From IMG/VR virus record IMGVR_UViG_3300028590_000076, positions 1 through 26,620 of that record: 26,620 nucleotides of DNA, one strand, 5' to 3'. This document shows, in pieces, positions 1,304-26,620 of this stretch. The notes under the pieces were generated by a model. It ran no database searches and was not told the origin of the DNA. It worked only from the letters and a program-made list of their open reading frames with translations. Made by a program: the position numbers and the translations under genes. The stretch is from a virus. The number at the start of each line of letters is the position of its first letter. The first letter of the stretch is position 1.

Positions 1304-1317
1304 AGTAGCTCCTGGCC

Positions 1318-3878: not shown

Positions 3879-4116
3879 TGCTGGTCTCCAAACGGGCGCG
3901 CAGGGCGTGGATGGCTTCGTCTGTTGCGGCGTTTGCGCAAGGCCAATCGACGCACTTCCTCAGCTCATACAGGGCAGTCCGCATCAGCGCTTCGTCGGCC
4001 TCGATGCGGGAGTGCTGGCGGCGGAGTTCGTTCGCGGCTGAACGCTCTATCGGACCGCAGCCCATAGAGCATTCCATGTATGTCGCCAGCCTCAGCGCTT
4101 CAGGTTGGTCTCTCAT
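3871..4116 (-). CDS. Small hypothetical phage protein
   Basis: An 81-aa helical protein opening with MRDQPEALRLATYME and followed by AANELRRQHSRIEADEAL, an arrangement common in short phage proteins with a coiled-coil-like middle. AAGGAG precedes the ATG at 4116, which overlaps the preceding stop codon (ATGA). No function can be assigned. Confidence 0.7.
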   Translation of the reverse strand: MRDQPEALRLATYMECSMGCGPIERSAANELRRQHSRIEADEALMRTALYELRKCVDWPCANAATDEAIHALRARLETSNV

Positions 4117-4838
4117 GTGCTCTCCTTGGTGACGATGCCATGGGCGTGCTCAGCCGCACGGACCGCCTTGCGCATGGACTTGCTGTCCACCGGGCAAAAC
4201 GGGTTGTTGATGCTGAAAGTGGCATCGCGCAGCTTCTCGATCTGCTCATCCGACAGCGGCACCCTCTCTGCAGGGGTGGATGCGCGGAGAGCGGCGAGCA
4301 CTGGTCGGAGTAAATCGACTGCCTCGGTGGCAACGTAGCGCGGGCGGTCGGTGTTGTTCCACGCGATCTGATTCAGGAGATCGATCGCCGCTTCAATCGC
4401 CCCTGCTGTTGCTGCCTGCGGGGATGGGGTGGCGGCTTCTCCAACGAAACACAGCATTCGCCCATCGTCGATGCGGCCAGCGTCAACCAAAGCTTCGGAG
4501 AGGCCCCAATGCACGTCTGCGGCTTGCTCTGGCGTCAGGGTTGGCAGGCGAACCGTCACCAGTTCCCCCTGCACTCGCTCGGGTGACTCCAGGGCGGCGC
4601 GCTCGTTCCATTTGGTGGTCAGCGCTGCCCGCATTTCTGCATCACGGTGTTTGACCGTCATGTCTCGGGCTTTGTTCCAGCCGATACTTGAGGTCATCGT
4701 CGAGCAGCATCTGAGCTTCAACTGCACGTAGCGTCTGTCGTCATGCCACTCAGCGGCGTCTCCCTCAAACCATGGCTCTCCGCCGCAGAATGGGCAAGGC
4801 AAGAGCGCTGCCAGCTCGGTGTGGGATGGGTTGGTCAT
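4113..4838 (-). CDS. Second Lar-like zinc-ribbon protein, extended
   Basis: A 241-aa protein. Residues about 12-85 carry a Lar-type zinc ribbon: LLPCPFCGGEPWF, a cysteine pair in LKLRCCSTM, and the end motif ALTTKWNERAA. The remaining roughly 150 residues are an unrecognised, mostly helical extension, including SDEQIEKLRDATFSI near the C-terminus, a phrase that recurs in modular phage proteins. The start at 4838 is set by AAGGAG, about 6 nt upstream; the frame stays open for 24 more codons upstream, but those overlap the neighbouring gene. It is the second Lar-like gene in this operon. Anti-restriction is possible from the family, not shown. Confidence 0.78.
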   Translation of the reverse strand: MTNPSHTELAALLPCPFCGGEPWFEGDAAEWHDDRRYVQLKLRCCSTMTSSIGWNKARDMTVKHRDAEMRAALTTKWNERAALESPERVQGELVTVRLPTLTPEQAADVHWGLSEALVDAGRIDDGRMLCFVGEAATPSPQAATAGAIEAAIDLLNQIAWNNTDRPRYVATEAVDLLRPVLAALRASTPAERVPLSDEQIEKLRDATFSINNPFCPVDSKSMRKAVRAAEHAHGIVTKEST

Positions 4839-5014
4839 TGGTCTTGCTCCTTCTGCTGCCGCATAGCCAAGTAGTCGCGGATCGTTCCTTTGATCGCGAG
4901 CATCCAGCACTCGGCCATTGCGCCTTCTGGCGTGTCTTTTCCCTTTCGGGCTAGGGCTTCGCGTGCCTCGTTGAGCCGATGAAACTCTTTGTCCAAGAAT
5001 TCGAACTCAGTCAT
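4835..5014 (-). CDS. Small helical hypothetical protein
   Basis: A 59-aa charged, helical protein (MTEFEFLDKEFHRLNEAREA and onward). The ATG at 5014 has GAGGGAG at a good distance; the alternative in-frame GTG at 5029 would consume that site and is rejected. It overlaps the preceding gene by 8 nt and the next by 4 nt. No recognised domain. Confidence 0.7.
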   Translation of the reverse strand: MTEFEFLDKEFHRLNEAREALARKGKDTPEGAMAECWMLAIKGTIRDYLAMRQQKEQDQ

Positions 5015-6629: not shown

Positions 6630-7090
6630 GGCGTTTCCTTGGAGAGTTGCAGGCGCGCCATCTGCGCGTTCGACCACAGGGCCGCGCGCACGGCGAACCC
6701 GAAGCGGTCCATTTCGATGAGCTGGTCCATCACCTCGGCGGCGGCCCGCGCGGTCAGGAGCTGGGCGCTGTTGAAGCCCACGCGCCCGGTGGTGCGGAAT
6801 CGCTCGAGCACGCCGGTGTAGGTTTCCAGCTGCTCGGCGATCGCGGCCTTGGCCTCTTCAGTGAAGGGCGTGCCGTCGGCCTCCAGCAGGCGCATCAGCT
6901 CGATGTAGGTCAGGCCCGTCTCGATCCAGTCCAGCAGGTCACCCTGCGTGGCCCGGCCGCTGGTGAAGCGCTCGATCAGATCCCAGTGCGCCAGCTTGCA
7001 GGTGGACACCTGCGCGGCGGTGATGGTGGGCTGCCAGAACTTGGGCAGCTCCCGCTTGGCGTGCGCGGCGCGGCGGTGTGCGGTCTTCAT
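6626..7090 (-). CDS. Helical hypothetical phage protein
   Basis: A 154-aa, almost entirely helical protein with a basic N-terminus (MKTAHRRAAHAKREL). The middle (ATQGDLLDWIETGLTYIELM) and the C-terminal pattern (LLTARAAAEVMDQLIEMDRFG) recur in uncharacterised Burkholderiales phage proteins. The start at 7090 lies inside the end of the methyltransferase gene with GAGGG upstream. Its position directly after the methyltransferase is consistent with translational coupling, but gives no functional link by itself. Confidence 0.75.
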   Translation of the reverse strand: MKTAHRRAAHAKRELPKFWQPTITAAQVSTCKLAHWDLIERFTSGRATQGDLLDWIETGLTYIELMRLLEADGTPFTEEAKAAIAEQLETYTGVLERFRTTGRVGFNSAQLLTARAAAEVMDQLIEMDRFGFAVRAALWSNAQMARLQLSKETP

Positions 7091-8763
7091 GCTGCGGCCC
7101 TCACGCTGACCATTTCGGCGTAGTTCGCGGCCACCAGCGCGCGCGCCAGCGGCGGGCAAACGCTGTTGCCGCACATGCGCACCTGGGCCGTCTTGGTCAG
7201 CGGGCGGCCATCGGCGCCCAGGTCGATGCGGTAAGTCTCGGGGAAGCCCTGGGCTCGGTAGAGCTCGCGCGGTGTGAGCATGCGCAAGCCGATGTCGACG
7301 ATCGCATAGGGCTCGCCCTTGACCATCACCAGGCCGAAGCGGTCCTTCGTTGTGACCGTGTGCAGCGGCTCGCGCAGTGCTGGATCCTGATCGGTGCCGT
7401 AGTACTTGATCAGGAAGGCCTGCACCTCTGCGTGGTGGGTGCCCTGGGCGCTGATGGTGTGCAGGGGTTCGTCGGCACCGCTGCCCACGTTGTCGCCTCG
7501 CATCTTCAGCATGTGGCTGGTGACGATACCGGCGGGCATGCCGCTGGCCGCCACGGTGTTCAGCGGCTGCTCGACATCGCGCACGCCGTGGCTGAACCGC
7601 TTGGTGCCGTCCTTGCCCTCACCGTGGCCCATGTGGATCAGGTTGGCCGCCACCAGGCTGTGGTGGTCGACCGTGGTGGCGGTGCCCATGGGTGCGCCCA
7701 AGTCGCTGCCCACCACGCCGGTGTAGTGCTTGGCGAGGAATGCCGACACCAAACCCTGGTGCTGGCCTTGCGCCGTGATCGTGCTCAGCGGCACCTCGAT
7801 TCCTGGCACGCGCGGTTGCTGGCCTGGGCGCTCGCCGTAGCCCATGCTGATGATGGTGGGCACAGACAGAGCAAACCCGGGCGCGCTGGTGGCGGTGCGC
7901 AGCGGTTCGGTGAGCGGCCAGTGATTCGGGGCCCTCCCGGTGGTCTTGCTGTTCGCCGTGTTCACGATGAACGGCTCGGCCGCGTCGATCACGTACCGCA
8001 CGATGCCCTTGGCGATGCGCCTGCACGTGGCGTCGGCCAGTGGCCGGGTGCGCTCGAAGATGCTGGGCGCGGCCACGCTCCAGTCGATGCACTCGGCGGC
8101 CGTGCGCCATGGCTTTAGCTTCTTCTGGCGCACCGGCAGGCTGTCCGGTGCCGCGTGCGTGGCTTCGGGCCACACCACCGGCTGGCCATCGCGCCGCGCC
8201 ACCAGAAACAGGCGCTTGCGGATGGTGGGCGCGCCGTAGTCGCAGGCCCGCAGCTCGCGGTGCTCGACCACATAGCCAAGGCTCTCCAGGCTGCGCTTCC
8301 AGCGGGCGAAGGTGGCGCCCTTGCGGCGTGGGCACGGCATGTTGTCGGCACCGAGCGGTCCCCAGGTCTGGAACTCTTCGACGTTCTCCAGGCAGATCAC
8401 GCGAGGGCGCACTGCCTTCGCCCACTTCACCACCACCCAGGCCAGGCTGCGGATCTTCTTGCTCACGGGCTTGCCGCCCTTGGCCTTGCTGAAATGCTTG
8501 CAATCAGGGCTGGCCCAGAGCAGGCCCACCGGCTGGCCGTCGGTGACCACCAGCGGATCCACTTCGAACACGTCCGACACGAAGTGGCGAGTCTGCGGGT
8601 GGTTCGCCTCGTGCAGGCTCACGGCCTCGGGGTCGTGGTTGATGGCGATGTCGACGTGCCGGCCGATGGCCTGCTCGATGCCGGTGCTGGCACCACCGCC
8701 ACCGGCGAACAGATCCACCACCAGTTCACTGGCGATGGGCAGGATGAACTGGGGGTTCAACAT
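7087..8763 (-). CDS. Orphan C5 cytosine-specific DNA methyltransferase
   Basis: A 558-aa enzyme transferring a methyl group from S-adenosylmethionine to cytosine C5. Motif I is DLFAGGGG (17-24). Motif IV is the variant SPDCKHFS with catalytic Cys88. Motif VI is ENV (126-128), motif VIII lies in YGAPTIRKRLFLVAR (176-190), motif IX in RELYRAQGFPETY (499-511) and motif X in GNSVCPPLA (532-540). The target-recognition region holds six copies of a PLxT-starting repeat, at residues 287, 325, 358, 400, 433 and 466, which account for its length above typical Dcm-like enzymes. No restriction enzyme gene is adjacent, so self-modification of phage DNA against host restriction is the likely role. Target sequence unknown. 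Confidence 0.95.
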   Translation of the reverse strand: MLNPQFILPIASELVVDLFAGGGGASTGIEQAIGRHVDIAINHDPEAVSLHEANHPQTRHFVSDVFEVDPLVVTDGQPVGLLWASPDCKHFSKAKGGKPVSKKIRSLAWVVVKWAKAVRPRVICLENVEEFQTWGPLGADNMPCPRRKGATFARWKRSLESLGYVVEHRELRACDYGAPTIRKRLFLVARRDGQPVVWPEATHAAPDSLPVRQKKLKPWRTAAECIDWSVAAPSIFERTRPLADATCRRIAKGIVRYVIDAAEPFIVNTANSKTTGRAPNHWPLTEPLRTATSAPGFALSVPTIISMGYGERPGQQPRVPGIEVPLSTITAQGQHQGLVSAFLAKHYTGVVGSDLGAPMGTATTVDHHSLVAANLIHMGHGEGKDGTKRFSHGVRDVEQPLNTVAASGMPAGIVTSHMLKMRGDNVGSGADEPLHTISAQGTHHAEVQAFLIKYYGTDQDPALREPLHTVTTKDRFGLVMVKGEPYAIVDIGLRMLTPRELYRAQGFPETYRIDLGADGRPLTKTAQVRMCGNSVCPPLARALVAANYAEMVSVRAAA

Positions 8764-14508: not shown

Positions 14509-15180
14509 TTAAAGCATTGATCCGGTCCAAACCGCGCGGCCAATCACGTCGATCTCGCCCGTGCTCGTGTTCGAATAAACCCGCGTCTTTGGCTTGAAGT
14601 TGGGGTTCTCGGCGGTGGCCAGCACGCCCACGCCGTCGACGCTCTGAAGGCGCTTGATCAGCAGTTCCCCGTCATACCGGAACGCGAAGAAATCGCCGTC
14701 CAGGTGCTCACGGTCGCCTCGGTTCACCAAGACCACTGACCCATCGACGATCTTGGGCTCGTTGCTGATGCCCTGAGCATCCACCACCACCGCGTTGCCA
14801 GGCGCGATGCCCAGCCGGCGCAGGAAGTCGCTGCGGAACACCAGTGGCGGCTTGTCGTCCTCGTGGTAGACCACCTGGCCCAGGCCGTTGGAAAAGGCCA
14901 CGTCAGCGCGCCGCACTGGCGTGAAGTCGTTCGGGTTGTAGCCCGAGTCCTCGACTGGCTGGTCCATCCAGCCGTCCGGCTTGCCGCACTTCTTTTCGAT
15001 TTCTCGGGCGGTGGATCGATCCATGGCGCGAGGCTTCCCCGTTCGTGAGTCTTTGGACGCATTGATCCACTGGCTCACCTGGGCAGGCGACTTGTCCAGC
15101 ATGGCGGCGAGCGCCGACTGGGAGCCAGCTTCGGCAGCCAGCATCTTGAGGCGCGCTCGGTAGATCTCTTCGATTCGCAT
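14509..15180 (-). CDS. CI-like repressor (HTH plus S24/LexA-type domain)
   Basis: A 223-aa lysogeny repressor. Residues about 8-60 form an HTH (SQSALAAMLDKSPAQVSQWI). Residues about 113-215 are an S24 peptidase-like domain with Ser139 in GISNEPKIVDG and Lys176 in ELLIKRLQ, the expected Ser/Lys dyad, although the usual GDSMEP reads GISNEP. No Ala-Gly lies in the linker and the only Cys-Gly is at 65-66, at the HTH edge, so RecA-stimulated self-cleavage is uncertain. The ATG at 15180 is chosen from the HTH start; AGGGAG is about 15 nt away, too far, and the promoter prediction gives almost no leader. It faces the Cro-like gene across three operators. Confidence 0.93.
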   Translation of the reverse strand: MRIEEIYRARLKMLAAEAGSQSALAAMLDKSPAQVSQWINASKDSRTGKPRAMDRSTAREIEKKCGKPDGWMDQPVEDSGYNPNDFTPVRRADVAFSNGLGQVVYHEDDKPPLVFRSDFLRRLGIAPGNAVVVDAQGISNEPKIVDGSVVLVNRGDREHLDGDFFAFRYDGELLIKRLQSVDGVGVLATAENPNFKPKTRVYSNTSTGEIDVIGRAVWTGSML

Positions 15181-15188
15181 GGCGCGAT

Positions 15189-15217
15189 TGTTTAGCTCCC
15201 TGCTAACCAGGGGAATT
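15189..15217 (-). promoter_or_regulatory. Repressor promoter (PRM-like)
   Basis: On the minus strand TAAACA (15194-15189) is a fair -10 box. With a 17-nt spacer the -35 would be AATTCC, which is poor, as expected for a promoter needing activation by bound repressor. The predicted start is near 15182, so the repressor mRNA would be leaderless or nearly so. Confidence 0.5.
15192..15206. promoter_or_regulatory. Repressor operator OR3-like
   Basis: TTAGCTCCCTGCTAA is a degenerate match to TTAGCGCNGCGCTAA, overlapping the repressor -10 box. Its centre is 24 bp from that of the next operator. Occupancy here should shut off the repressor promoter. Confidence 0.65.
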
Positions 15218-15230
15218 CGCGTAGCGCTAT
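15216..15230. promoter_or_regulatory. Repressor operator OR2-like
   Basis: TTCGCGTAGCGCTAT has one good half-site (GCGCTA) and one weaker half. It is centred 24 bp from both flanking operators and just behind the -35 box of the rightward promoter. Confidence 0.65.
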
Positions 15231-15257
15231 TGACAACGTTTAGCGCAGCGCTAACAA
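15230..15257 (+). promoter_or_regulatory. Early-right promoter (PR-like)
   Basis: A consensus TTGACA (15230-15235) and TAACAA (15252-15257) are 16 nt apart, with the perfect operator between them. The predicted start falls at about 15263-15265, on or next to the ATG of the Cro-like gene, implying a leaderless message. Confidence 0.75.
15240..15254. promoter_or_regulatory. Repressor operator OR1-like
   Basis: The perfect palindrome TTAGCGCAGCGCTAA, identical to the operator at 13118-13132, lies between the -35 and -10 boxes of the rightward early promoter. Confidence 0.85.
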
Positions 15258-15264
15258 TCGGCGC

Positions 15265-15531
15265 ATGAACCTCCCCGACTACATCAATTCCGAGCCCGGC
15301 GCCCAGGCGCGTCTCGCCAAAGAGCTGGGCATTCCCGCGCCCCTGATGAGCCAGTGGAAGACCGGCGAGCGCCGTGTGCCGGCAGAGCGCTGCCCGCTGA
15401 TCGAGCGCGCCACCGGCGGACTCGTGAGGTGTGAAGACCTCCGCCCCGATGTCGCCTGGGACGTCCTCCGTTTGCAAGCAGAACCCGCAGCCGCGGGCAT
15501 CACACCCGAGCCCGCAGGGCAGGGCACCTAA
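15265..15531 (+). CDS. YdaS/Cro-like HTH regulator
   Basis: An 88-aa protein. Residues 1-68 match the YdaS/Cro-like pattern: MNLPDYI, an HTH ARLAKELGIPAPLMSQWKTG, then the typical RRVPAERCPLIERATGG and DLRPD. These proteins act as Cro-type early repressors opposing CI at the shared operators; the YdaS name comes from an antitoxin annotation in Rac prophage. The C-terminal 20 residues are a Pro/Ala/Gly tail. No Shine-Dalgarno is present before the ATG, and the promoter -10 box is only 7 nt upstream, so the message looks leaderless. It is the first gene of the rightward operon. Confidence 0.88.
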   Translation: MNLPDYINSEPGAQARLAKELGIPAPLMSQWKTGERRVPAERCPLIERATGGLVRCEDLRPDVAWDVLRLQAEPAAAGITPEPAGQGT

Positions 15532-15540
15532 ATCGATCGA

Positions 15541-15578
15541 GAGGCTGGTGGTCTTCATGGCCGCCAGTCTCTTTTTTT
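15541..15578 (+). terminator. Rho-independent terminator between Cro-like and CII-like genes (tR1-like)
   Basis: GAGGCTGGTGG (15541-15551) pairs with CCGCCAGTCTC (15561-15571) through 11 positions including two G-T wobbles, with a 9-nt loop, followed by seven T (15572-15578). It lies in the early-right transcript, so read-through or antitermination is needed for replication genes. Confidence 0.82.
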
Positions 15579-15589
15579 CGCCCATTTTC

Positions 15590-15627
15590 GAGATGGCAAC
15601 AGACAGCAAGAGCCGTTGCCATCTCCC
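15590..15627 (+). promoter_or_regulatory. Leader hairpin before the CII-like gene
   Basis: A perfect 11-bp inverted repeat, GAGATGGCAAC (15590-15600) and GTTGCCATCTC (15617-15627), with a 16-nt loop and no T-run. It ends just before the ribosome-binding region GAGAGGTG of the CII-like gene. It could stabilise the 5' end, bind a protein, or be part of an antitermination or processing site. Confidence 0.55.
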
Positions 15628-15643
15628 ACCTGAGAGGTGAAAC

Positions 15644-16009
15644 ATGAGCCAACTGACACTGAATTTCGAGCCTGCGCTGCCTGAGCGCTTTCGCTCGCTG
15701 CGAGCGTTCGTCGCACATCGCTCGGCGGTGGTGGACAAGAAGCAGGGCCAGCAGGCCGCCGACATGGATCTGGCGCCCAGCACGCTCAGCCGGAAGCTGA
15801 ACCCGTCCGATGGTGACACCCAGCGCTTCAACGTAGACGACCTGGAGTCGTGGCTGGAGAGCACTGGCGATGCCGCTGCGGTGGTCGAGTACATCGTGGC
15901 CAAGTACATGGACTGCGACAAGGCGCGCCACCAGCGCACCCTGGCCAACGCAGAGCGCCTGATCGCCGAACTGGCGAAGGTGCTGCCCGGCCTGAGGGCT
16001 GCAGCATGA
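15644..16009 (+). CDS. CII-like HTH regulatory protein
   Basis: A 121-aa protein at the CII position. A helix-turn-helix is suggested at about 32-52 (KKQGQQAADMDLAPSTLSRK), followed by NVDDLESWLESTGD and a helical C-terminus with a leucine-rich pattern (LANAERLIAELAKVL) that may mediate oligomerisation. The content fits the CII/CP76-type phage regulators, which influence the lysis-lysogeny choice. The assignment rests on architecture and position more than on a diagnostic motif. GAGAGGTG precedes the ATG by a good distance. Confidence 0.72.
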   Translation: MSQLTLNFEPALPERFRSLRAFVAHRSAVVDKKQGQQAADMDLAPSTLSRKLNPSDGDTQRFNVDDLESWLESTGDAAAVVEYIVAKYMDCDKARHQRTLANAERLIAELAKVLPGLRAAA

Positions 16010-16281
16010 CCCACTGCTGGCCCGGCACCACCATCCCGATCAGCCGCGGCAACGGCTTCGACCTCGCTGCGCGCGCGTCGCGCGGACCCAGCATCTTCTG
16101 CAACCTCACCAGCAAGCAGGCCACGGCCGGTGCGCATGGTGGCCACAAGAGCGCGTCCGTGGTGCCTGTGGTGGCCGGCCTGTCCAAGCGCGCGCAGAAG
16201 CAACTCAAGGCCACCGGGGTGCAGATGTCCACGAAGAGCGACCCGGTGAAGGCCCGGCGCATGGCGAAGGCGGCGATCTGA
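16006..16281 (+). CDS. Hypothetical protein
   Basis: A 91-aa basic protein with no recognised domain. Its ATG overlaps the CII-like stop (ATGA). The C-terminus is Lys/Arg-rich (SKRAQKQLKATG, KARRMAKAA), which hints at nucleic-acid binding. It is coupled to the next gene by TGATG. Confidence 0.62.
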   Translation: MTHCWPGTTIPISRGNGFDLAARASRGPSIFCNLTSKQATAGAHGGHKSASVVPVVAGLSKRAQKQLKATGVQMSTKSDPVKARRMAKAAI

Positions 16282-16538: not shown

Positions 16539-17524
16539 ACTTCTACGAGCGCCACATCGGCGACTACATCAAGAAGACGTCGCACCTGTCGCTGCTGGAG
16601 CACGGGGTGCTCACGCGCCTGCGCGACGTGTACCTGGACCGCGAGGAACCGATCCCCGAGGCAAGGGCCGCTCGCCTGGTCGGAGCGCGGACGGAACCTG
16701 AAACGGAAGCGTTGCAGGTCGTGTTGCAGGAGTTCTTCCAACTGCGCGACGGCATGTGGGTGTGCGACGAGTGCGAGGCCCTGATCGCGGCATATGCGGC
16801 TGGCGAACCCGAGCGCGAGGTGAAAAAGGCCAACGAAGACAACCGCCTGAAACGCCACCGACAGGAGCGGGCAGCACTGTTCAAACTGCTCACTGACAGA
16901 GGGGAACACGCCCCTTGGAACATCGGAATGGAGGAGCTTCGGCAGCGCGTTGCAGCGTTGCAGGTTCCGGGGCCTGAAACGCCTGCTGCAACGCAACCTG
17001 CAACGGCACCTGCAACGCCTGCAACGGCTACCCACTACCCACTACCCACTACCCAATCCCCAGGTATAGGGAAACAGGGTGCTGACGCACCCTTGTCGCC
17101 AGCTGCGCCGACGACGCCGACACCGCCGCCAATGGCCGACCTGCTGGGTGAAGGCACTGGCGAACCCGCTGCCATCCCACCGTGCCCGCTCAAGCAGCTG
17201 GTCGCTCTGTTCGCGGCCAGGGTGCCAGAGCTTCCGAAGCCACGGTTCGAGATGTGGAAGGACTCGGCCGGCGCCGAAGCCATGCGCCAGCGCTGGAAGT
17301 GGTTGCTCGGCCCGGATGCCGTCCGCGAAGACAACACCCGCTACGCCTCGAACGCTGCCGAGGCCATCGACTGGTTCGGCCGGTTCTTCGACACCGTGAA
17401 GGCGTCGGACTTCCTGACCGGCCGCCGAGGCGACTGGAAGGCCTGTGACCTTGCCTGGCTGATGAAGCGCGAGAACTTCATGAAAGTCGTTCAGGGCAAC
17501 TACACCAACCGAGAACACGCATGA
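16535..17524 (+). CDS. DUF1376 replication-associated protein (probable initiator or helicase loader)
   Basis: A 329-aa protein. The N-terminal 80 residues (NFYERHIGDYIKKTSHLSLL, then EHGVLTRLRDVYLDREEPIP) are a clear DUF1376 domain, typical of phage replication proteins upstream of a helicase or loader gene. A basic coiled stretch (95-115) leads into a Pro/Ala/Thr linker (about 148-205) encoded by short DNA repeats. The C-terminal domain (about 215-325) contains LPKPRFEMWKDSAG and the WFGRFFDTVKASDFLTGR segment often seen at the C-terminus of such proteins. The start is TTG at 16535, overlapping the previous stop; no usable ATG lies near. With DnaB directly downstream, an origin-binding or loading role is likely. 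Confidence 0.88.
   Translation: MNFYERHIGDYIKKTSHLSLLEHGVLTRLRDVYLDREEPIPEARAARLVGARTEPETEALQVVLQEFFQLRDGMWVCDECEALIAAYAAGEPEREVKKANEDNRLKRHRQERAALFKLLTDRGEHAPWNIGMEELRQRVAALQVPGPETPAATQPATAPATPATATHYPLPTTQSPGIGKQGADAPLSPAAPTTPTPPPMADLLGEGTGEPAAIPPCPLKQLVALFAARVPELPKPRFEMWKDSAGAEAMRQRWKWLLGPDAVREDNTRYASNAAEAIDWFGRFFDTVKASDFLTGRRGDWKACDLAWLMKRENFMKVVQGNYTNREHA
16948..17026 (+). repeat. Iteron-like TGCAACG repeats within the replication gene
   Basis: TGCAACG occurs at 16987, 16999, 17011 and 17020, and its complement CGTTGCA at 16948 and 16956. CGTTGCAGGTT (16956-16966) and AACCTGCAACG (16995-17005) form a perfect 11-bp inverted repeat. Two further GTTGCAGG copies lie at 16711 and 16723. The position inside a replication gene recalls the lambda origin in gene O, but the direct copies also encode a repeated Pro-Ala-Thr, so they may only reflect linker coding. 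Confidence 0.55.
17028..17055 (+). repeat. Four tandem CTACCCA heptanucleotide repeats
   Basis: CTACCCA is repeated four times without interruption, starting at 17028, 17035, 17042 and 17049. It is inside the coding linker (THYPLPTTQS). Since 7 is not a multiple of 3, gain or loss of a unit would shift the reading frame of the replication protein. Confidence 0.9.
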
Positions 17525-18945
17525 ACATGACCGAACCTGAAGGCTTCATGGCCGACCCCGAGGCCGCCACCCTGCGCGTGCCGCCGCACTCCATCGAGTC
17601 CGAGACGGCTGTACTGGGTGCGCTGCTGATCAACAACGCCGCCTGGGACCGCGTGGGCGACCTGCTGACCGAGGCGGACTTCTACCGCAGCGAGCACCGC
17701 CTGCTGTTCGGTGCAGTCGCGGCGCTGATCAACGCGAGCAAGCCGGCCGACGTGGTGACGGTCTTCGAACGGTTGCGCGACCAAGGCAAGGCGGAAGAGG
17801 CCGGCGGCCTGGCCTACATGAACCAGCTGGCGCAGTACCTGCCCAGCGCGGCGAACGTCCGGCGCTACGCCGAGATCGTGCGCGAGAAGTCGGTGCTGCG
17901 GCAGCTGGTGGCCGCCAGCGACGAGCTGGCCAGCGCCGCATTCAACCCGGGCGACCGCACCGCCGCCGAGCTGCTGGACCACGCGCAGCAGAAGATCATC
18001 GCCCTGGGCGACCAGGGTGCACCGCGCGACGACTGGGAAGACACGGACGCCGGAATGGACGCGCTGCTCGACCGGATCCAGGACCAGGCGCACGGGGAGG
18101 GCGGCAACACCTTCGTGCCCACCGGCCTGACCGAGCTGGACGAGCTGCTGAATGGCGGGTTCCGCGAGGGCCACCTGATCGCCCTGGGTGGTCGCCCGAG
18201 CATGGGTAAGACTGCCCTGGCCATGTCGATCGGCAACACCTTCGCCGAGGCCGGCCACGCTGTGGGCATGCTGTCGATGGAGATGCCGCGTACCGAGGTG
18301 CACGAGCGCCGCATGTCCATGGTGTCGCACATCCATCTGAGCCGCGTGCAGCGCGGCGAGCGCCTGCGGGATTTCGACTGGCCGAGCATCACCGCCGCCA
18401 CCGAGCGCCTGCGCAACACGCCCTTCTACACCAGCGACCAGGTGGGCCTGAACATCAACCAGGTGCGCGCCAAGGCGCGCGCACTCAAGCGCCGTCACGG
18501 GCTGCGCCTGCTGATCGTGGACTACCTGGGCCTGATGACCGGCACCGACGCCAAGGCGCCGCGCGCCTACCAGCTCGACGAGATCACGAAGGGCCTCAAG
18601 GGCCTGGCCAAGGAACTCGGCATCACGGTGCTGATGCTCGCCCAGGTCGGGCGCGAGGTGGAGAAGCGGCCGGACCAGCGCCCCCTGATGTCCGACTTCC
18701 GCGACAGCGGCTCGGTGGAGCAGGACGCCGACGTGTGCATCTTCGTGTACCGCGAGTGCCGCGCCAAGCCCGGCCTGCCCAAGGAATGGGACTACATCGC
18801 CGAGCTGATCGTGCCCAAGCAGCGCGGCGGTGCCGCCGGCAAGGTGGAGGTGATGTACGTGGGCGAGAACACGCTTTTCAAGGACTGGCCCGAGGACCAG
18901 CCGAAGCCGGAATCCCGGGTTCGGGTGAAAGGCGGTGACCTGTGA
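17521..18945 (+). CDS. dnaB: Replicative DNA helicase, DnaB family
   Basis: A 474-aa hexameric 5'-3' helicase of the phage fork. The N-terminal DnaB domain covers about 20-125 (PHSIESETAVLGALLI). The RecA-like ATPase domain starts near 198. Walker A is GRPSMGKT (224-231), Walker B lies in LLIVDYLGLM (330-339), and later come the conserved VLMLAQVGREVEKRPDQRP, SDFRDSGSVEQDAD and LIVPKQRGG segments. The length is that of bacterial DnaB. The ATG at 17521 overlaps the previous stop (ATGA); a second ATG lies two codons later. It pairs with the DUF1376 protein as the replication module. Confidence 0.97.
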   Translation: MNMTEPEGFMADPEAATLRVPPHSIESETAVLGALLINNAAWDRVGDLLTEADFYRSEHRLLFGAVAALINASKPADVVTVFERLRDQGKAEEAGGLAYMNQLAQYLPSAANVRRYAEIVREKSVLRQLVAASDELASAAFNPGDRTAAELLDHAQQKIIALGDQGAPRDDWEDTDAGMDALLDRIQDQAHGEGGNTFVPTGLTELDELLNGGFREGHLIALGGRPSMGKTALAMSIGNTFAEAGHAVGMLSMEMPRTEVHERRMSMVSHIHLSRVQRGERLRDFDWPSITAATERLRNTPFYTSDQVGLNINQVRAKARALKRRHGLRLLIVDYLGLMTGTDAKAPRAYQLDEITKGLKGLAKELGITVLMLAQVGREVEKRPDQRPLMSDFRDSGSVEQDADVCIFVYRECRAKPGLPKEWDYIAELIVPKQRGGAAGKVEVMYVGENTLFKDWPEDQPKPESRVRVKGGDL

Positions 18946-19457
18946 TCGTGCTCGGCATCGACCCCGGCCTGACCGGCGCGTGCGCCGTGCTGGGCCACAA
19001 CGGCCTGCTGGCCGTCTTCGACCTGCCGACCATGCCCATCCCGGGCGTGGGCCCGAAGGCGCTGGTGCAGCGGAAGCTCGACGGGCTGGCGCTGCGCACC
19101 CAGATCCTGGCAGCGTGCCCGGCCGACGAGCCGGTGGCGGCCGTGGTGGAGGCGGTGGGCGCCATGGGCGGGAAGAACAACAGCGTGCAGACCCAGGGCT
19201 CACTGCTGCGCACGCTTGGCGCGATCGAGTGCGTGCTGGAGTGCCTGCGCCTGCCGGTGGCCTACGCCAACACCACGACGTGGAAGTCGTTCTACGGACT
19301 GATCGACTCGACGCTGGGCCAGACCGAGCGCAAGGCCAAGGCGCTGGCCATGGCCCGCACGCTGTATCCGGGGTGCACCGACATCGCCCGGGCCAAGGAC
19401 CACAACCGCGCCGAGTCGATCCTGATCGCGCACTGGCAGATGAGGACCGCTGCATGA
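18942..19457 (+). CDS. RuvC-like Holliday-junction resolvase
   Basis: A 171-aa RNase H-fold endonuclease. Acidic catalytic positions are visible: Asp7 in GIDPGLTGA, Glu70 in AVVEAVGAM, and Asp153 and Glu158 in KDHNRAESILIA. The length matches RuvC. It would resolve branched DNA during phage replication or before packaging. The GTG start at 18942 overlaps the DnaB stop (GTGA). Its place after the helicase and before NinB-like genes is a common phage arrangement. Confidence 0.9.
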   Translation: MIVLGIDPGLTGACAVLGHNGLLAVFDLPTMPIPGVGPKALVQRKLDGLALRTQILAACPADEPVAAVVEAVGAMGGKNNSVQTQGSLLRTLGAIECVLECLRLPVAYANTTTWKSFYGLIDSTLGQTERKAKALAMARTLYPGCTDIARAKDHNRAESILIAHWQMRTAA

Positions 19458-19693
19458 CCGGCCTGGAGCAAATCGGCATCGCCCTTTTCGGCGTGGCCGC
19501 CATCAGCCTGAGCCAGGACCACCGCGCCCACGTGCAGCGCTGGGCCTGCATCAGCGGCCTGTGCGCTCAACCATTCTGGTTCTGGACCACCTACACGAAC
19601 GAGCAGTGGGGCATCTTCGCCCTGTGCTTCCTCTACTCGTGGGCCTGGGCCAAGGGCGTGCGCACCCACTGGATGCAACGGAGGACCACATGA
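19454..19693 (+). CDS. Small membrane protein
   Basis: A 79-aa protein with hydrophobic segments at about 5-20 (EQIGIALFGVAAISLS) and 50-66 (EQWGIFALCFLYSWAWAKG), separated by an aromatic loop QPFWFWTTYTN. The QPFW...QWGIF...YSW pattern recurs in phage and bacterial membrane proteins of unknown role. The ATG overlaps the resolvase stop (ATGA). A membrane protein in the middle of replication genes may be a moron, but nothing else supports that. Confidence 0.75.
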   Translation: MTGLEQIGIALFGVAAISLSQDHRAHVQRWACISGLCAQPFWFWTTYTNEQWGIFALCFLYSWAWAKGVRTHWMQRRTT

Positions 19694-19866
19694 ACCCCGC
19701 CGACTTTGACCTGCAGCCATCCGACGTGCCCCAGCCCAAAGAGGTGGACGAGGAGCTGGCCACCCGTGACTGGCCCATGCCGGCCGCCAAGCCGTGGGCG
19801 CCCGAGCCGCGCAAGGAATCGTTGGCCCAGGCGATTCGGCAGGTCTTCCGGCGGAGGGGGCGGTGA
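19690..19866 (+). CDS. Small hypothetical protein
   Basis: A 58-aa, Pro-rich, probably disordered protein with a basic C-terminus (AIRQVFRRRGR). The ATG overlaps the preceding stop (ATGA), and its stop overlaps the next ATG (TGATG). No domain recognised. Confidence 0.65.
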   Translation: MNPADFDLQPSDVPQPKEVDEELATRDWPMPAAKPWAPEPRKESLAQAIRQVFRRRGR

Positions 19867-20291
19867 TGCGACACGCCTACGACGTAGCCAGCCCACGCCA
19901 GGCCCACGAGGCCGTCAACCACCTGTTCCAGCAGGTGATCAAACCCCACACGCGCACCGGCGCCGCCGGCCGGGTGATCTTCGAGACCGTGAACACGCAC
20001 CTGCGCCACGAGCTGCGCAAGATGTTCCACGGCCCGATCCTGAACGACTTCGCGTGGCAGGTCTGGCTCCCCGACCCGGCGACAGGGGGCATGCGCCGCT
20101 ACACGCCGCGCGTCTGGAAGCAGCACCTGAAAGACGTCTTCTGCCCGGCCCAGTTCGACGACGTGACCGGCGCCGAACTCGAGAAATCCACCGAGCGGCT
20201 GAGCGACGACGAGTTTTCGGAGTTCATCGTCGCGGTGCAGGCCTATGGCGTGGTGGAACTCGGAATCACCTTCACCGAGAAGGACCAGTAG
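19866..20291 (+). CDS. NinB-like recombination protein
   Basis: A 141-aa protein resembling lambda NinB/Orf in length and layout: an N-terminal strand-helix part, a central WLPDPATGGMRRYTPRVWKQ, then HLKDVFCPAQFDD, and a C-terminal STERLSDDEFSEFIVAVQAY helix pair. NinB binds single-stranded DNA and acts in RecFOR-like mediator steps. Sequence agreement is by pattern only. The next gene is HNH-like, as in lambda-type nin regions. Confidence 0.78.
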   Translation: MRHAYDVASPRQAHEAVNHLFQQVIKPHTRTGAAGRVIFETVNTHLRHELRKMFHGPILNDFAWQVWLPDPATGGMRRYTPRVWKQHLKDVFCPAQFDDVTGAELEKSTERLSDDEFSEFIVAVQAYGVVELGITFTEKDQ

Positions 20292-20293
20292 CC

Positions 20294-20593
20294 ATGCAGT
20301 CCAAGAACAAGAAGGCCCAGACCGTGGCCGAGGCCGAATACGTGCGCTCCGTCGCGCTGCAGCCCTGCGCGGTGTGCGATGCCGGCGGCGGGGAAGCCGC
20401 TCCGTCCGAGGTGCACGAGATCGAACAGGGCAACTGGTGGCTGTCCATCGCCCTGTGCGGCGGATGCCACCGGGGCCCCATCAACGGCCTGCACGGCCAG
20501 CGCCGCATGTGGATCCTCAAGAAGCTCGACGAGCAGAAGGCCCTGGCCATCACCGTCCGCCGGGTGTTCCTGGCAGCGAGGAGGGCGGCCTGA
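20294..20593 (+). CDS. HNH/Ref-like zinc-binding nuclease candidate
   Basis: A 99-aa protein with CAVC near residue 26, VHEIEQGNWW in the middle and CGGCHRGP followed by NGLHGQRR. Two CxxC pairs with following His residues fit a treble-clef HNH-type zinc site, and the tail (GLHGQRRMWILKKLDEQKAL) recalls the RecA-dependent Ref nuclease and NinG-like families. The usual second catalytic His is replaced by HEIE, so activity is uncertain. The ATG lies 3 nt after the NinB-like stop. A role in recombination is likely from context. Confidence 0.72.
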   Translation: MQSKNKKAQTVAEAEYVRSVALQPCAVCDAGGGEAAPSEVHEIEQGNWWLSIALCGGCHRGPINGLHGQRRMWILKKLDEQKALAITVRRVFLAARRAA

Positions 20594-21024
20594 TGACGGT
20601 GGCGATCTCGACCGAATGCCGCGCGCAGCTCGAGGCGTTGGGCCTGTGGCCCCTCGTCTCGGTGGCGCTCGCCCGGTCGCGGTCCTCGCGCGATCGCGCA
20701 CAGCGCTGCCTGCAGGAAGCGACAGCCCGAGCCCGCCAGCTCGACCTGTTCGACGAACCTCTGCCCCAAGCCCGGACCGCCCGCATCCCCAGGCCCATCG
20801 ACGTGGAAAGCGTCCCCATCGGCTCAACCGTCCGAACACCAACCGGCGCACTCGCCGAGGTGGTCGCATACCGTGGCGGTCGCCGCATCGGTGGAGGGCA
20901 GAAGGACGACCACGAGCGCCTCGTCTGCCGCTACCTCACCGCCAAGAACCGCCGATTCGGCACCCTCGTGATCAAGCCTGAGCTGGTCCAAGTAGTACCA
21001 AAGGAAGTAAGCCATGGGGCGTAA
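20593..21024 (+). CDS. Hypothetical protein
   Basis: A 143-aa protein. The first 55 residues are helical (ECRAQLEALGLWPLVSVALA and onward). From about 75 the protein turns strand-rich (VPIGSTVRTPTGALAEVVAY, GTLVIKPELVQVV), like a small SH3-type barrel. It lies in the slot where lambdoid phages place the late antiterminator Q, but nothing in the sequence identifies it as such. The ATG shares a base with the previous stop. Its 3' end overlaps the terminase small subunit by 11 nt. Confidence 0.68.
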   Translation: MTVAISTECRAQLEALGLWPLVSVALARSRSSRDRAQRCLQEATARARQLDLFDEPLPQARTARIPRPIDVESVPIGSTVRTPTGALAEVVAYRGGRRIGGGQKDDHERLVCRYLTAKNRRFGTLVIKPELVQVVPKEVSHGA

Positions 21025-21640
21025 GGCAGCAACGAAAGCAACGTCTGAAAAAGACCAGAACGACCTGTCCATGCTGGTTTTCCTGCAGGCGCTGTCCGAA
21101 GGGGCCACGATCAGCGAGGCCTCCCGCGAGGCTGGGATCAACCGCGTGACGGCGTACCGCTGGAAGGAAAGCGACGCGGAGTTCGCCGCCGCCTGGGATG
21201 AGACCTTGGAGGAGGGCACCGAGCTGCTGGAGCGCGAAGCGGTGCGCCGGGCCGTACATGGCGTGGAGGAGCCGGTCGTCTACCAGGGTCAGCTCACCCC
21301 AATCTACGAGCACAACCCGGACGGCACGCTGAAGCTGGTCAAGACGCGCGAGCCCAACGCCAAGGGCCGCATGGTGACGGTGCACAAGCCGGTGCAGGCG
21401 GTAGACGCCGATGGCAACCCGCGCTTCCTGACGGTGCGCAAGCCCAGCGACACGCTCATGATCTTCATGCTGAAGAGCCGGCGGCCCAATACCTACCGTG
21501 AGCGCGGGAGCATCGAGCACACCGGCGCCGGGGGCAAGCCGCTCGCGCCGGTGGTTGGTGGCGGCGTGCTGGTGGTGCCGGGGATCATCACCGATGCGGC
21601 GGCGTGGTCAGCGCAGGTGCAGAAGGTGACCCCCGAGTGA
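21014..21640 (+). CDS. terS: Terminase small subunit
   Basis: A 208-aa DNA-recognition subunit of the packaging motor. The N-terminal HTH (SEGATISEASREAGINRVTA followed by YRW) and the subsequent AAWDETLEEGTELLEREAVR helix are typical of small terminases with a resolvase-like HTH. Towards the C-terminus the SDTLMIFMLKSRRPNTYRER segment is characteristic of this family. AAGGAAG lies before the ATG at 21014, inside the end of the preceding gene. The large subunit follows after an inserted minus-strand gene. Confidence 0.9.
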   Translation: MGRKAATKATSEKDQNDLSMLVFLQALSEGATISEASREAGINRVTAYRWKESDAEFAAAWDETLEEGTELLEREAVRRAVHGVEEPVVYQGQLTPIYEHNPDGTLKLVKTREPNAKGRMVTVHKPVQAVDADGNPRFLTVRKPSDTLMIFMLKSRRPNTYRERGSIEHTGAGGKPLAPVVGGGVLVVPGIITDAAAWSAQVQKVTPE

Positions 21641-21648
21641 CCGCAAGC

Positions 21649-21939
21649 CTATTCCTTGATCAGCTTGCCCCAGTCTTCGTCGGTTTCCTCGACCACGATG
21701 TTTACCCCGCAACCTTGCTTGCCATCTGCGCTCACCCAGTAGCTGAACAGTCGCGAACGCACGCGGCCCGCGAAATTGGCATGCGTCCCGTTGCTCGACA
21801 TGATGTTCACGAAGTCACCGACGTTCGGGATTGGCGGGTCCGGTTCACCGGCCTTTCCCTCCACACCCACGATCACGCCGTCATCAATTGGCCGCGCTGC
21901 GCCCTTGGGCAGGTACTGGAAGTCGAAGCTGTAGTCCAT
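21649..21939 (-). CDS. Lone minus-strand gene between the terminase subunits (moron-like)
   Basis: A 96-aa acidic, strand-rich protein starting MDYSFDFQYLPKG, with IPNVGDFVNI, SRLFSYWV and an end CGVNIVVEETDEDWGKLIKE. Short proteins of this pattern are found in mobile elements, function unknown. GAGGGAA precedes the ATG well. TATATT (21975-21970 on the minus strand) could be a -10 box, but no good -35 accompanies it. It faces against the whole right arm and its stop lies 9 nt from the small-terminase stop, with no visible terminator between. This placement is that of an independently transcribed moron. Confidence 0.72.
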   Translation of the reverse strand: MDYSFDFQYLPKGAARPIDDGVIVGVEGKAGEPDPPIPNVGDFVNIMSSNGTHANFAGRVRSRLFSYWVSADGKQGCGVNIVVEETDEDWGKLIKE

Positions 21940-21989
21940 AGTTCCCTCTCAACAGTTGGTGAAGCGGGCAATATAGCCGCTCGAGCGCC

Positions 21990-23444
21990 ATGAACCTCCC
22001 GTCGAGCACCAGCGTCGCCTGGCAGCCTCACCCCGGAAGCCAGACCATGTTCCTGGCCTGCCCGGTGTTCGAGTGCCTGTACGAGGGCACGCGCGGCCCG
22101 GGCAAGACCGACGCCCTCCTGATGTCCTTCGCCCAGTTCGTCGGGCGCGGCTTCGGCGCTGAGTGGCGCGGCATCCTGTTCCGGGAGACCTACAAGCAGC
22201 TGGCCGACGTGGTGAAGAAGAGCAAGCGCTGGTTTCGCAAGTTCTTCCCCAACGCCCGCTTCCTGGAGAGCCACGCCGACTTCAAGTGGATCTTCCCCGA
22301 CGGCGAGGAGCTGCTGCTGCGCGTGGGCGTGAAAGAGGACGATTACTGGGACTACCACGGCCACGAGTACCCGTGGATCGGCTTCGAGGAGCTCACCAAC
22401 TGGCGGGACCTGAACTTCTTCGAGATGATGCACAGCTGCTGCCGCAGCTCGGTGCCAGGCATGCCTCGCATGGTGCGCGCGACGTGCAACCCCTACGGCC
22501 GCGGCCATGCCGTGGTGAAGGCGCGGTATCAGCTCGGCCGCATGGGCGTGCCGCCCGGCACCATCATCCGCGACGGCGACACCGGCCGGGAGCGCACCTA
22601 CGTGCACGGCGACATCCGCGAGAACACCACGCTGCTCGCCAACGACCCTGAGTACATGGCGACCCTGGAGGGCACGAAGGACCCGAACCGCCGCAAGGCC
22701 TGGCTGTATGGCGACTGGGACATCCACATCGGCGCGTTCCTGGAGGGCGCGTGGGATCCGGAGCGGCACATAGTCAAGCCGTTCCCCATCCCCGCGCATT
22801 GGAAGCTGTGGCAGGCAATGGACTGGGGGTATGCCAAGCCCTACGCCGTCGGGTGGTTCGCCAAAGACCCCGAGGGCAAGACGTACCTGTGGCGCGAGCT
22901 GTACGGCATCGCCACCGACGACAAGGGTCGCATGCTGGCGAATACCGGCACGAAGGAAACGCCCGACAAGGTGGCCGCCCGCATCATCGCGCGCGAAGCC
23001 CATGACGCGCGCCTGGGCTACGACATCAACCTGCGCCTGACCGGACCCGACCTATTCGCCAAGGGTGGCGCGCAGTACGGCGCCCAGAACACCCACAGCC
23101 AGACGTTCCGCCGCGCCGGGCTCAACTTCCGGCCCTGGTGGGCCGGACCCGGGAGTCGCAAGGCCGGCGCGCTCCTGGTGAAGCAGGCGCTGGAGCTGGA
23201 CGAACTGGCCATCTTCGCCAGTTGCGAGCACACCATCCGCACGGTGCCGGCCATCGAGCCGGACCCGGATGACCCGGACGACGTGGACACCGAGGCCGAA
23301 GACCACTGCTTCGACATGTTGAAGGCGGGTCTCATGCGCCGCACCAGCACACCTGCGGAGGCCGTGGGCAGCGACAGCCCGGACCCGGCCACTGCGGGCG
23401 GTGCGCAGGTGCTCGACGACGGCCGCCACCTGGTCGCGCGCTGA
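21990..23444 (+). CDS. terL: Terminase large subunit
   Basis: A 484-aa packaging ATPase and nuclease. A Walker-A-like GTRGPGKT (33-40) follows FECLYE, and the acidic Walker B pair is in WIGFEEL (Glu133-Glu134). The RNase H-like nuclease domain begins with AMDWGYAKPYAVGW (Asp278) and has a late conserved acidic residue in HCFDMLKAGLM. The length is usual for the family. The ATG at 21990 has no clear Shine-Dalgarno but is preceded by the palindrome CGCTCGAGCG (21978-21987). Confidence 0.94.
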   Translation: MNLPSSTSVAWQPHPGSQTMFLACPVFECLYEGTRGPGKTDALLMSFAQFVGRGFGAEWRGILFRETYKQLADVVKKSKRWFRKFFPNARFLESHADFKWIFPDGEELLLRVGVKEDDYWDYHGHEYPWIGFEELTNWRDLNFFEMMHSCCRSSVPGMPRMVRATCNPYGRGHAVVKARYQLGRMGVPPGTIIRDGDTGRERTYVHGDIRENTTLLANDPEYMATLEGTKDPNRRKAWLYGDWDIHIGAFLEGAWDPERHIVKPFPIPAHWKLWQAMDWGYAKPYAVGWFAKDPEGKTYLWRELYGIATDDKGRMLANTGTKETPDKVAARIIAREAHDARLGYDINLRLTGPDLFAKGGAQYGAQNTHSQTFRRAGLNFRPWWAGPGSRKAGALLVKQALELDELAIFASCEHTIRTVPAIEPDPDDPDDVDTEAEDHCFDMLKAGLMRRTSTPAEAVGSDSPDPATAGGAQVLDDGRHLVAR

Positions 23445-23512
23445 GTCACTTTTCGGCGTTCGCCAGGGCTTCGCGGCCCACATTACCGCCGACGACAGCC
23501 ACAGGACCGACC

Positions 23513-25576
23513 ATGCAGCAACCCCTTGACGCGCCCGCGCCCAGCGTGAACCCCTCCTCGATGGAGGCGCCCAATAATCAGACCAGCACCGACCCACAGG
23601 CCGACCCGTTGGTGAAGACGTGGATGAACCGCGTCAAGGCGTCGGAGAAGCACTGGGGCACCTTCCATAAGCGGGTCGCCCACAACCGCAAGGTGGTGCG
23701 CGGCATCGACGACAAGGCCGAGCCCGACACCGCCGCGTACAACAAGGACCGGGCGAACCTGATCGCCTCGACCATCTCCGTGGTGCTGTCCAAGGTCTAC
23801 GCCAAGAACCCGGAAATGTCGGGGGAGCCCACGAACAAGTCGCGCCCGCTGCGCCTGTTCGCCGACACCGTGAGCACGGTGACCCAGACCATGCTGGAGG
23901 ACGCCAAGCTCAAGCAGAAGGCCAAGCGCGCAGTGAAGGCGGCCATGACCTGCAGCTTTGGCGTGGTCAAGGTGCAGTGGCAGCGCGACATGAAGGTCGA
24001 CCCGATCATCAAGGCGCGGATCGAGGACACGCAGGACAACCTGGCGCACATCGACGCGCTGCTGGCCGAGATTGAAGACCCCGAGCAGCGCGGCGACCAG
24101 GAGGCGCAGAAGCGCGAGCTCGAGCAGGCCATCGCCGGCCTGGAGGCCCAGCGAGAGGTGGTGGCCGCCGAGGGCCTGACCATGGATATGGTGCGCACCG
24201 AGCGGCTGCTGCCCGATCCGGCCGTGGAGGACATTTGGGATTACGCCATGGGCGACTGGCTCATCGAGAAGATTCCCATGCGCAGGTCCAAGGCGAAGGG
24301 CCTGTTCCCCGACCTGACCGGGGCAGACGGGGCGAGCCTGCTGGACCGCGCCACCACTTTCAAGGTGGGCAAGGACGTGACCGACGATGCCCCGCGCCGG
24401 GGGATGTACGCCGGGGCCGCGCTGGTGGCTGGTGGCGAAGACCCCATGGTGATGGTGTACGAGGCCTGGAGCAAGGTCGACAACACCATCTACACCATGG
24501 TGGCGGGCATCGAATCGAAGTTCGCGCGCGCACCCTATCACCCCGAGCGCCTGGGTGAGCGCTGGTACCCCTACTTTCTGCTGCCGTTCCAGTCGGTCGA
24601 CGGCGAGTTCGTGGCGCAGAGCATGGTGGACGTGCTGGAGAAGCTGCAGATCGAGCACAACGAGACGCGCGACAAGTTCGCTGAGGTCCGCAAGAACATC
24701 CGGCCGCACTACATCGTGGGTGCTGACGTTCCCGACAAGGCCATCACGAAGCGCGTGCACCCGGAGATCGGCGAGTTCGTGTCAATCGACACAGGCGGGC
24801 AGCCACTCGGCAGCCAAGTGGAAGTCGCGGTGCAGCTGCCGATCGACCCGGCGGTCTACGACACCAGCCCGATCCGCAACGATTGGGAGATGGTGTCAGG
24901 CCTGCAGGATGCCGCGCGCTCGGTGGTGGTGCAGGCAAAGACCGCCACGGAGGCAGCCATCTCGGACCAGTCGCTCGCCGCGCGTGTGGCCGAGTTCCGC
25001 GACCAGATCGAGGACTGGCTGACGGAGATTGCCCAGTTCGCCAGCGAGGTGTGCCTGCTGTCGATGACGCCGGCCATGGTCGAAACCATCATGGGCCCGC
25101 AGCCCACGCCACCGGAGCCGCCGAACCCGATCATGGCGATGGCCAGCGCCGCCATGGGTGCGCCCATGCCCCAGCCTGAGCCGCCGCCGCCGCCCACCTA
25201 CGAGTGGCCGGCGCAGGCCTCGCCGGAGACGGTCTTCAACCTGATCATGATGAAGATCCGGGCCGGCTCCACTGCGGCACCGAACAAGCTGCAGGCGCAG
25301 GAGACCTGGACGCGCGCGCTCCCCCTCATCCGCGAAATGGTCATGGCCATCCGCCAGATCGACACCATGGGCGGTGACAGCACGCCTGAGCGCGAGCTGG
25401 TGCGCGAGACCGCCGCACGCTTCGACGAGACGATCGACGTCGACCGCTTCCTCCCCGCCAAGCCAGCAGCGCAGCCCGCAGAGCCCGCGCTTGGCGCTCC
25501 CCCGATCCCCGGCGCCCAGCCGGGCATGCCGACGCCAGGCGGCCCAGCCCTGGCAAATCCTGCCACCCTGCAGTAG
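23513..25576 (+). CDS. Portal protein (large, P22-like size)
   Basis: A 687-aa protein following the large terminase, as expected for the dodecameric portal that forms the DNA entry vertex. Features in line with large portals are the N-terminal ASEKHWGTFHKRVAHNRKVV, a helical region with long coiled-coil character near 185-220 (DNLAHIDALLAEIED, then ELEQAIAGLEAQRE), the LEKLQIEHNETRDKFAEVRK helix at about 380-400, and SLAARVAEFRDQIEDWLTEI. The C-terminal 100 residues are Pro/Ala-rich. AGGA lies just before the ATG. The size and gene order suggest a podovirus-like head module; the identification is by architecture and position. Confidence 0.85.
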   Translation: MQQPLDAPAPSVNPSSMEAPNNQTSTDPQADPLVKTWMNRVKASEKHWGTFHKRVAHNRKVVRGIDDKAEPDTAAYNKDRANLIASTISVVLSKVYAKNPEMSGEPTNKSRPLRLFADTVSTVTQTMLEDAKLKQKAKRAVKAAMTCSFGVVKVQWQRDMKVDPIIKARIEDTQDNLAHIDALLAEIEDPEQRGDQEAQKRELEQAIAGLEAQREVVAAEGLTMDMVRTERLLPDPAVEDIWDYAMGDWLIEKIPMRRSKAKGLFPDLTGADGASLLDRATTFKVGKDVTDDAPRRGMYAGAALVAGGEDPMVMVYEAWSKVDNTIYTMVAGIESKFARAPYHPERLGERWYPYFLLPFQSVDGEFVAQSMVDVLEKLQIEHNETRDKFAEVRKNIRPHYIVGADVPDKAITKRVHPEIGEFVSIDTGGQPLGSQVEVAVQLPIDPAVYDTSPIRNDWEMVSGLQDAARSVVVQAKTATEAAISDQSLAARVAEFRDQIEDWLTEIAQFASEVCLLSMTPAMVETIMGPQPTPPEPPNPIMAMASAAMGAPMPQPEPPPPPTYEWPAQASPETVFNLIMMKIRAGSTAAPNKLQAQETWTRALPLIREMVMAIRQIDTMGGDSTPERELVRETAARFDETIDVDRFLPAKPAAQPAEPALGAPPIPGAQPGMPTPGGPALANPATLQ

Positions 25577-25582
25577 GACACC

Positions 25583-26620
25583 ATGCACATCAAAAACCTC
25601 ATCCGACGATTCTTCAACGACGAACCCGGCGCGGCCGGTGGTGGCGTAGCTCCATCGCCCGCACCCAGCCCGGACGCCAATGCCGATGCGGCCGAGGCGC
25701 CGGCCGCCGCGCCCGCCGAAGCTCCAGCCGCTGACGCGCCAGCAGACCCCTTCCAGGGCCTGAACACGCTCCTAGATGCAGTCGGCACCGATCCTGCCGC
25801 AGCACCTGCCGCCGCAGGCACGCCGGCAGCGCCTGCGCCTGCCGCTGGCGCGGCTCCAGCAGCACCTGCTGCTCCTGCGCCGGCAGCTGCAGCGCCCGCA
25901 GCTCCAGCAGGTGCGCCTGCAGCCCCTGGCCAATTCGACATGACGCCGCCTGAGGGCATCACCGAGCGGGCGAAGGCACGCTGGACTGAATTGACCGACC
26001 GCGTGAAGGCCGTGCCGGAGCTGGAGCGCCGGGCCACCGAGGCCACGCAGCAGCTCGACAGCGTGCGCCGCATGGTCAGCGACAGCGGCCTGGCGCCCGA
26101 GGAGTTCAACACCGTCCTGACCCTGGGCCGGCTGTACAAGTCGAGCAACCCACAGGAACTCCAGAGCGCGCTGCAGCAGATCGAGGGCCTGCGGGCCGAC
26201 ATCGCCACGCGCCTGGGCACCGAGGTTGCCGGCGTCGACCTGCTGGCACAGCACCCGGACCTGAAGGCGCGCGTGGACGGCATGACCCTGTCGCGCGAGG
26301 ACGCCCTGGAGATGGTCCGCCTTCGCACGCAGAACCAGACGGCGCAGCGCACCCAGCAGCAAACCCAGGACTTCCAGCAGTTCCAGGCCACGGTCCAGCA
26401 AGCCGCTACGCAAATGGACGCCACGCTGGAGCAACGCAAGCACCAGCCCGGGCACGAGGCCAAGGTCGCCTTCATCAAGGGCCAGTTGGCCGACCCGGTG
26501 AAGCTGCAGCAGTTCGTCACCACCTACGAACCTCACCAGTGGCAGGCCGCCGTCCTGATGATGTACGACGCCTTCACGCCGCCGGCAGCGCCTGCGCCTG
26601 CCACTGGTGAGGTTCGTAGG
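25583..26620 (+). CDS. Probable scaffolding protein, 3' end beyond the window
   Basis: The frame stays open from the ATG at 25583 to the last base (346 codons). Residues 1-12 are basic. About 20-115 form an Ala/Pro-rich, disordered linker made of APA and AAP runs. From about 120 the protein is helical and charged, with heptad-like stretches (RRATEATQQLDSVRRMVSDS; QNQTAQRTQQQTQDFQQFQA). Position after the portal, disorder and coiled coil fit a head scaffold. The last 25 bases repeat, inverted, an earlier stretch of the same gene, so the final codons may not be genuine. Confidence 0.7.
   Translation, partial: MHIKNLIRRFFNDEPGAAGGGVAPSPAPSPDANADAAEAPAAAPAEAPAADAPADPFQGLNTLLDAVGTDPAAAPAAAGTPAAPAPAAGAAPAAPAAPAPAAAAPAAPAGAPAAPGQFDMTPPEGITERAKARWTELTDRVKAVPELERRATEATQQLDSVRRMVSDSGLAPEEFNTVLTLGRLYKSSNPQELQSALQQIEGLRADIATRLGTEVAGVDLLAQHPDLKARVDGMTLSREDALEMVRLRTQNQTAQRTQQQTQDFQQFQATVQQAATQMDATLEQRKHQPGHEAKVAFIKGQLADPVKLQQFVTTYEPHQWQAAVLMMYDAFTPPAAPAPATGEVRR
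26523..26620. repeat. 25-bp perfect inverted repeat at the window end
   Basis: Bases 26523-26547 are the exact reverse complement of 26596-26620, separated by 48 nt. The right arm ends on the last base of the window. A 23-bp direct repeat (25821-25843 and 26580-26602) overlaps the right arm. This could be a real hairpin in the coding sequence or a fold-back assembly artefact. Confidence 0.95.

Follow-up and report, generated by a model that had tools for sequence, protein, structure and literature searches.

The right end of a virus contig is very probably a fold-back chimera within a probable scaffold gene

Does the long inverted repeat at the right end of the virus record IMGVR_UViG_3300028590_000076 belong to the genome of a phage, or did it arise on the way from DNA to contig? 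The stretch analysed here (the window) is the whole record of 26,620 bases, so the place where the right arm finishes, position 26620 (the final base of G000:C1), is also the end of the assembled contig. Positions 26596-26620 are the perfect reverse complement of positions 26523-26547 (25/25 positions), with a spacer of 48 nt between the arms, which bears out the claim of a first-pass annotation of this DNA that a perfect 25-bp inverted repeat ends at the last base, and places it beyond chance. These 25 bases are the longest suffix of the window whose reverse complement lies inside the window. In 200 random sequences with the dinucleotide make-up of the window the longest such suffix was 11 (mean 7.8), and a chance repeat was rejected on these numbers. 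As DNA, positions 26500-26620 fold with an energy of -39 kcal/mol, whereas their shuffled versions average -20.6 (z -6.4). At the left end of the window there is no comparable terminal inverted repeat (6-7 nt only).

The repeat falls in an ORF that begins at position 25583 and stays open up to the end of the record. Its genuine part (25583-26602, plus strand; 340 codons) comes after the portal gene and is cut by the contig end. It is a probable scaffold gene, a label that we infer from its position between the portal gene and, in the matching contig L005 described below, the gene for the major head protein. Neither the ORF nor its longer L005 form matched any Pfam or PHROG family, and a protein search of the phage collection with the ORF gave no match. 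Upstream of the ORF lies the gene for the terminase large subunit (21990-23444; best PHROG E value 8e-29), and the portal gene (23513-25576; PHROG 156, E value 1e-4) precedes the ORF and codes for a protein with 24% identity to the annotated portal of Microcystis phage Mae-Yong1326-1 (E value 6e-25). Two Ala/Pro-rich stretches occur in the probable scaffold gene, a long one within the N-terminal third and a short one ahead of the C-terminus, and they have 23 identical bases in common, in frame.

A contig with the same sequence made it possible to tell the genuine bases at this end from the foreign ones. The search of the viral contigs with the ORF protein returned two loci; L005 is IMGVR_UViG_3300038441_000374, a contig of 4,221 bases. 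It is identical to the window at 2,911/2,911 bases over positions 23692-26602 and diverges exactly at 26603, 14 of the 18 positions that follow being different. Past the divergence the same frame continues in L005 to a stop codon, giving a gene of 379 codons, and the next ORF matches the major head protein family PHROG 9953 (E value 6e-24). The arm sequence is present in L005 as one copy, the left arm, and in the window as two. L005 was the only identical contig that turned up, and the two samples may or may not be independent. The 27-mer that spans the junction was not found in viral_contigs, a set from which the window's own and very near records may be excluded.

The anatomy of the junction can be read from this comparison. 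The left arm (26523-26547, plus strand; codons TYEPHQWQ) is genuine coding sequence, which occurs once in L005 at 100% and whose protein stretch is conserved in relatives. Its last bases, GGCAGGC (26541-26547, plus strand), form a natural 7-nt site that pairs with GCCTGCC at 26596-26602. This is the sole exact inverted pair of at least 7 nt in positions 26423-26602, and both halves fall inside the stretch identical to L005. GCCTGCC also forms the last 7 bases of an Ala/Pro linker (26580-26602, plus strand) which, as the first-pass annotation had stated, is a 23-bp direct repeat of 25821-25843 and overlaps the right arm at 26596-26602. The two copies share a reading frame at a distance of 759 bases (253 codons), and the linker is found letter-for-letter in L005 and in similar form in the Hydrogenophaga locus L011; judged by these sequences, the 23-bp repeat in the linker is genuine and coding. 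Of the 25 bases in the right arm, the foreign part comprises only the final 18; the first 7 (GCCTGCC) are genuine and are the likely annealing site. The 18 bases (26603-26620, plus strand) are the reverse complement of 26523-26540, and through them the ORF gains six false residues, TGEVRR. Within 4 mismatches, their reverse complement matches the window at 26523 and nowhere else. The microhomology at the junction is 7 nt, and an overlap of at least 7 nt appeared in 0.1% of 200,000 simulated random local strand switches, a rarity that points to annealing.

More distant relatives tell the same story as L005. Eight relatives were aligned (L005, L011, L012, L013, L016, L019, L020 and L021), chosen as contigs that hold the gene by tblastn, with one locus per contig; L020 and L021 do not differ in the final 900 bases of the gene, so at most seven of the eight are independent. 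The genome collection contributed a locus from Hydrogenophaga sp. 2FB (L011, portal 86% identical), one from a Hydrogenophaga MAG (L012, portal 76% identical) and one from a Bacteroidetes MAG (L013, portal 46% identical), and additional viral contigs came from the terminase search. In 8/8 aligned relatives the C-terminus holds QPLR and is followed by a stop codon; the TGEVRR end occurs in the window alone. In the relatives we scanned the final ~350 bases of the gene together with the next 100, and in the window the last 453 bases, for exact inverted repeats: the longest has 25 nt in the window versus 8 nt in L011 and L013, 9 nt in L020 and L021, 10 nt in L005, L012 and L016, and 11 nt in L019. 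A genuine hairpin should be present in identical or related genomes, and 8-11 nt is the maximum in 8/8 of them. The 25-mer itself (up to 3 mismatches) was found in 1/8 records searched, the contig of L005, in one copy, a search that alone says little for the distant relatives because their sequences have drifted. Comparison with the scaffold gene of close relatives had been proposed in the first-pass annotation as a check, and its outcome is clear: L005 runs past 26602 with the arm present once, and the seven more distant relatives have a normal C-terminus and no exact inverted repeat above 11 nt.

We conclude with good confidence that a fold-back (snap-back) chimera, without function in the phage, forms the right end of the record. 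The inverted repeat is very probably not genomic and represents an artefact of an already described kind. What speaks for this is that the terminal bases mismatch L005 (14/18) while the inner part matches it (2,911/2,911), that 25/25 positions at the end are the reverse complement of a stretch close by on the same strand, and that a short natural inverted repeat of 7 nt sits at the switch point. The fold-back or chimeric contig end preferred in the first-pass annotation thus gains support from the continuation of L005 and from the relatives, and the stable hairpin in the scaffold gene that it named as the alternative finds none, L005 and the relatives being without it.

We propose that a single strand with the 3' end ...GCCTGCC would have folded onto GGCAGGC of the same strand, leaving a loop of 48 nt, and that a polymerase would have extended the annealed 3' end by copying from 26540 back to 26523, with the left arm as template. 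Library end repair or strand-displacing amplification could have provided the setting; the chimeric read or molecule would end there and the assembler would have retained it at the contig end. We infer this molecular step, be it end repair, amplification or the assembler. The 25-nt arm could reflect the 5' end of the molecule at 26523, which would give a hairpin fragment of 98 bases, or a read or contig that merely ended at that point.

Could the assembler, and not a reaction in the tube, have made the join? Merging of a read pair or an incorrect route through the k-mer graph might produce such an end. The junction does sit in a repeated GC-rich Ala/Pro linker with a 23-bp direct repeat, and the last base of the arm coincides with the contig end, as if a graph path had re-entered an existing node. 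We nevertheless regard this misjoin as unlikely, as the opposite strand would have been reached via a shared word of only 7 nt. Usual assembler word lengths are far above 7 nt, so a read that carried the junction would still be needed, and we know of no default assembler word length that a terminal overlap of 25 would fit. We also looked for a systematic fault in IMG/VR contig ends and found none. Terminal inverted repeats of at least 12 nt were present at 0/124 other contig ends, both in the nearest 1 kb (best 10) and over the whole locus, and at 96 control cut ends there were none within 1 kb (best 9) and one further away in the locus. This survey covered 113 loci, counted ends with the same last 60 bases once, left out the genome loci L011-L013 and L007-L010 and the window's own loci, and drew its sample from relatives and not at random. 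The fold-back end seems to be an isolated event rather than something that the pipelines do regularly; since such repeats are absent from the other contig ends, the survey adds no support for the artefact.

The remaining explanations place the repeat in the phage itself. Living cells do produce inverted duplications with microhomology, and a real rearrangement, in the phage variant or in a minority of its population, could have formed a hairpin in the gene, which would agree with the perfect repeat and with an ORF that is open to the last base. Were this true, it would be an unusual hairpin in a probable head-assembly gene. Such a rearrangement is highly improbable, however, being absent from the matching contig L005, and the seven relatives are without a comparable inverted repeat; it would replace the QPLR C-terminus present in 8/8 relatives, the copied stretch ends at the last base of the record, and the junction is not found in viral_contigs. 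The specific case of a population minority with a true fold-back inverted duplication at the 7-nt pair, a new C-terminus after the second Ala/Pro linker and a strong hairpin we consider more improbable still. Two inverted arms around 48 bases also recall an invertible (phase-variable) segment between inverted repeats, to which we give almost no credence. L005 has the same orientation and lacks the second arm beyond its 7 genuine bases, and if GGCAGGC and GCCTGCC were the sites of inversion, the 48 bases would be turned round with no change in the flank, a pattern that differs from the one observed. Such a segment should be seen in both orientations with intact arms, and they were not found in the comparison with the one identical contig, L005.

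The fold-back chimera that we favour resembles artefacts known from sequencing libraries. Star et al. 2014 (PMC3946424) propose fold-back extension for reads carrying 'interrupted palindromes', artefacts that derive from single-strand hairpins in library preparation. The artefacts treated there share with the present end a short natural reverse-complement stem, a genuine inner sequence and artificial bases at the 3' end for which the 5' part of that strand was the template. Unlike them, ours is found in a contig and not in reads, and in a virus contig collection and not in museum DNA, and its arm has 25 nt versus an average of 11 bp given for the historic cod libraries in that account. Strand-switching chimeric reads at natural inverted repeats after fragmentation by sonication are explained by the PDSM model in PMC10908179, and the strand switch at a natural inverted repeat is common to both cases. 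As outlined there, the model also pairs strands of different molecules, which from the contig alone is indistinguishable here, and the finder described requires inverted repeats of at least 8 bp in total. Finally, PMC9484634 reports inverted-repeat chimeras from strand-displacement amplification by the T7 replisome and also discusses phi29 MDA. In those chimeras, as proposed here, a short inverted repeat lets a 3' end anneal, and extension follows; the present record may or may not come from an amplified sample.

For curation, positions 26603-26620 are unfit for annotation, for folding or as evidence of a hairpin, and the last six residues of the ORF are false. When a terminal inverted repeat is met on a fragment record, the first reading should be a chimera, of which this record is an example.

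Other features of the record bear on the phage that it represents. At the extreme left, a tRNA-Asn (gtt) gene (22-97, plus strand) stands beside a tyrosine integrase gene (203-1576, minus strand; PF00589). This arrangement resembles a prophage attachment site, and the left contig end may lie near a prophage-host border. Within positions 17519-26601, the replication, packaging and portal-scaffold blocks are 80-85% identical to a contig of 40,165 bases from Hydrogenophaga sp. 2FB (L011, L014 and L039), a similarity that suggests a temperate phage of Hydrogenophaga. Relatives of the portal and scaffold genes are also carried by JAIXUS010000065.1 (L013), the contig binned as a Bacteroidetes MAG, which points either to a distant host or to a mis-binned contig. 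An ORF of 564 aa with a TTG start (14509-16203, minus strand) shows Peptidase_S24 near its C-terminus and YdaS below the curated cut-off; it is a probable phage repressor, and its start may have been called too early. A match to a Lar-like restriction alleviation protein (4113-4910, minus strand) and a C-5 cytosine DNA methylase (7087-8763, minus strand) could offer protection against host restriction.
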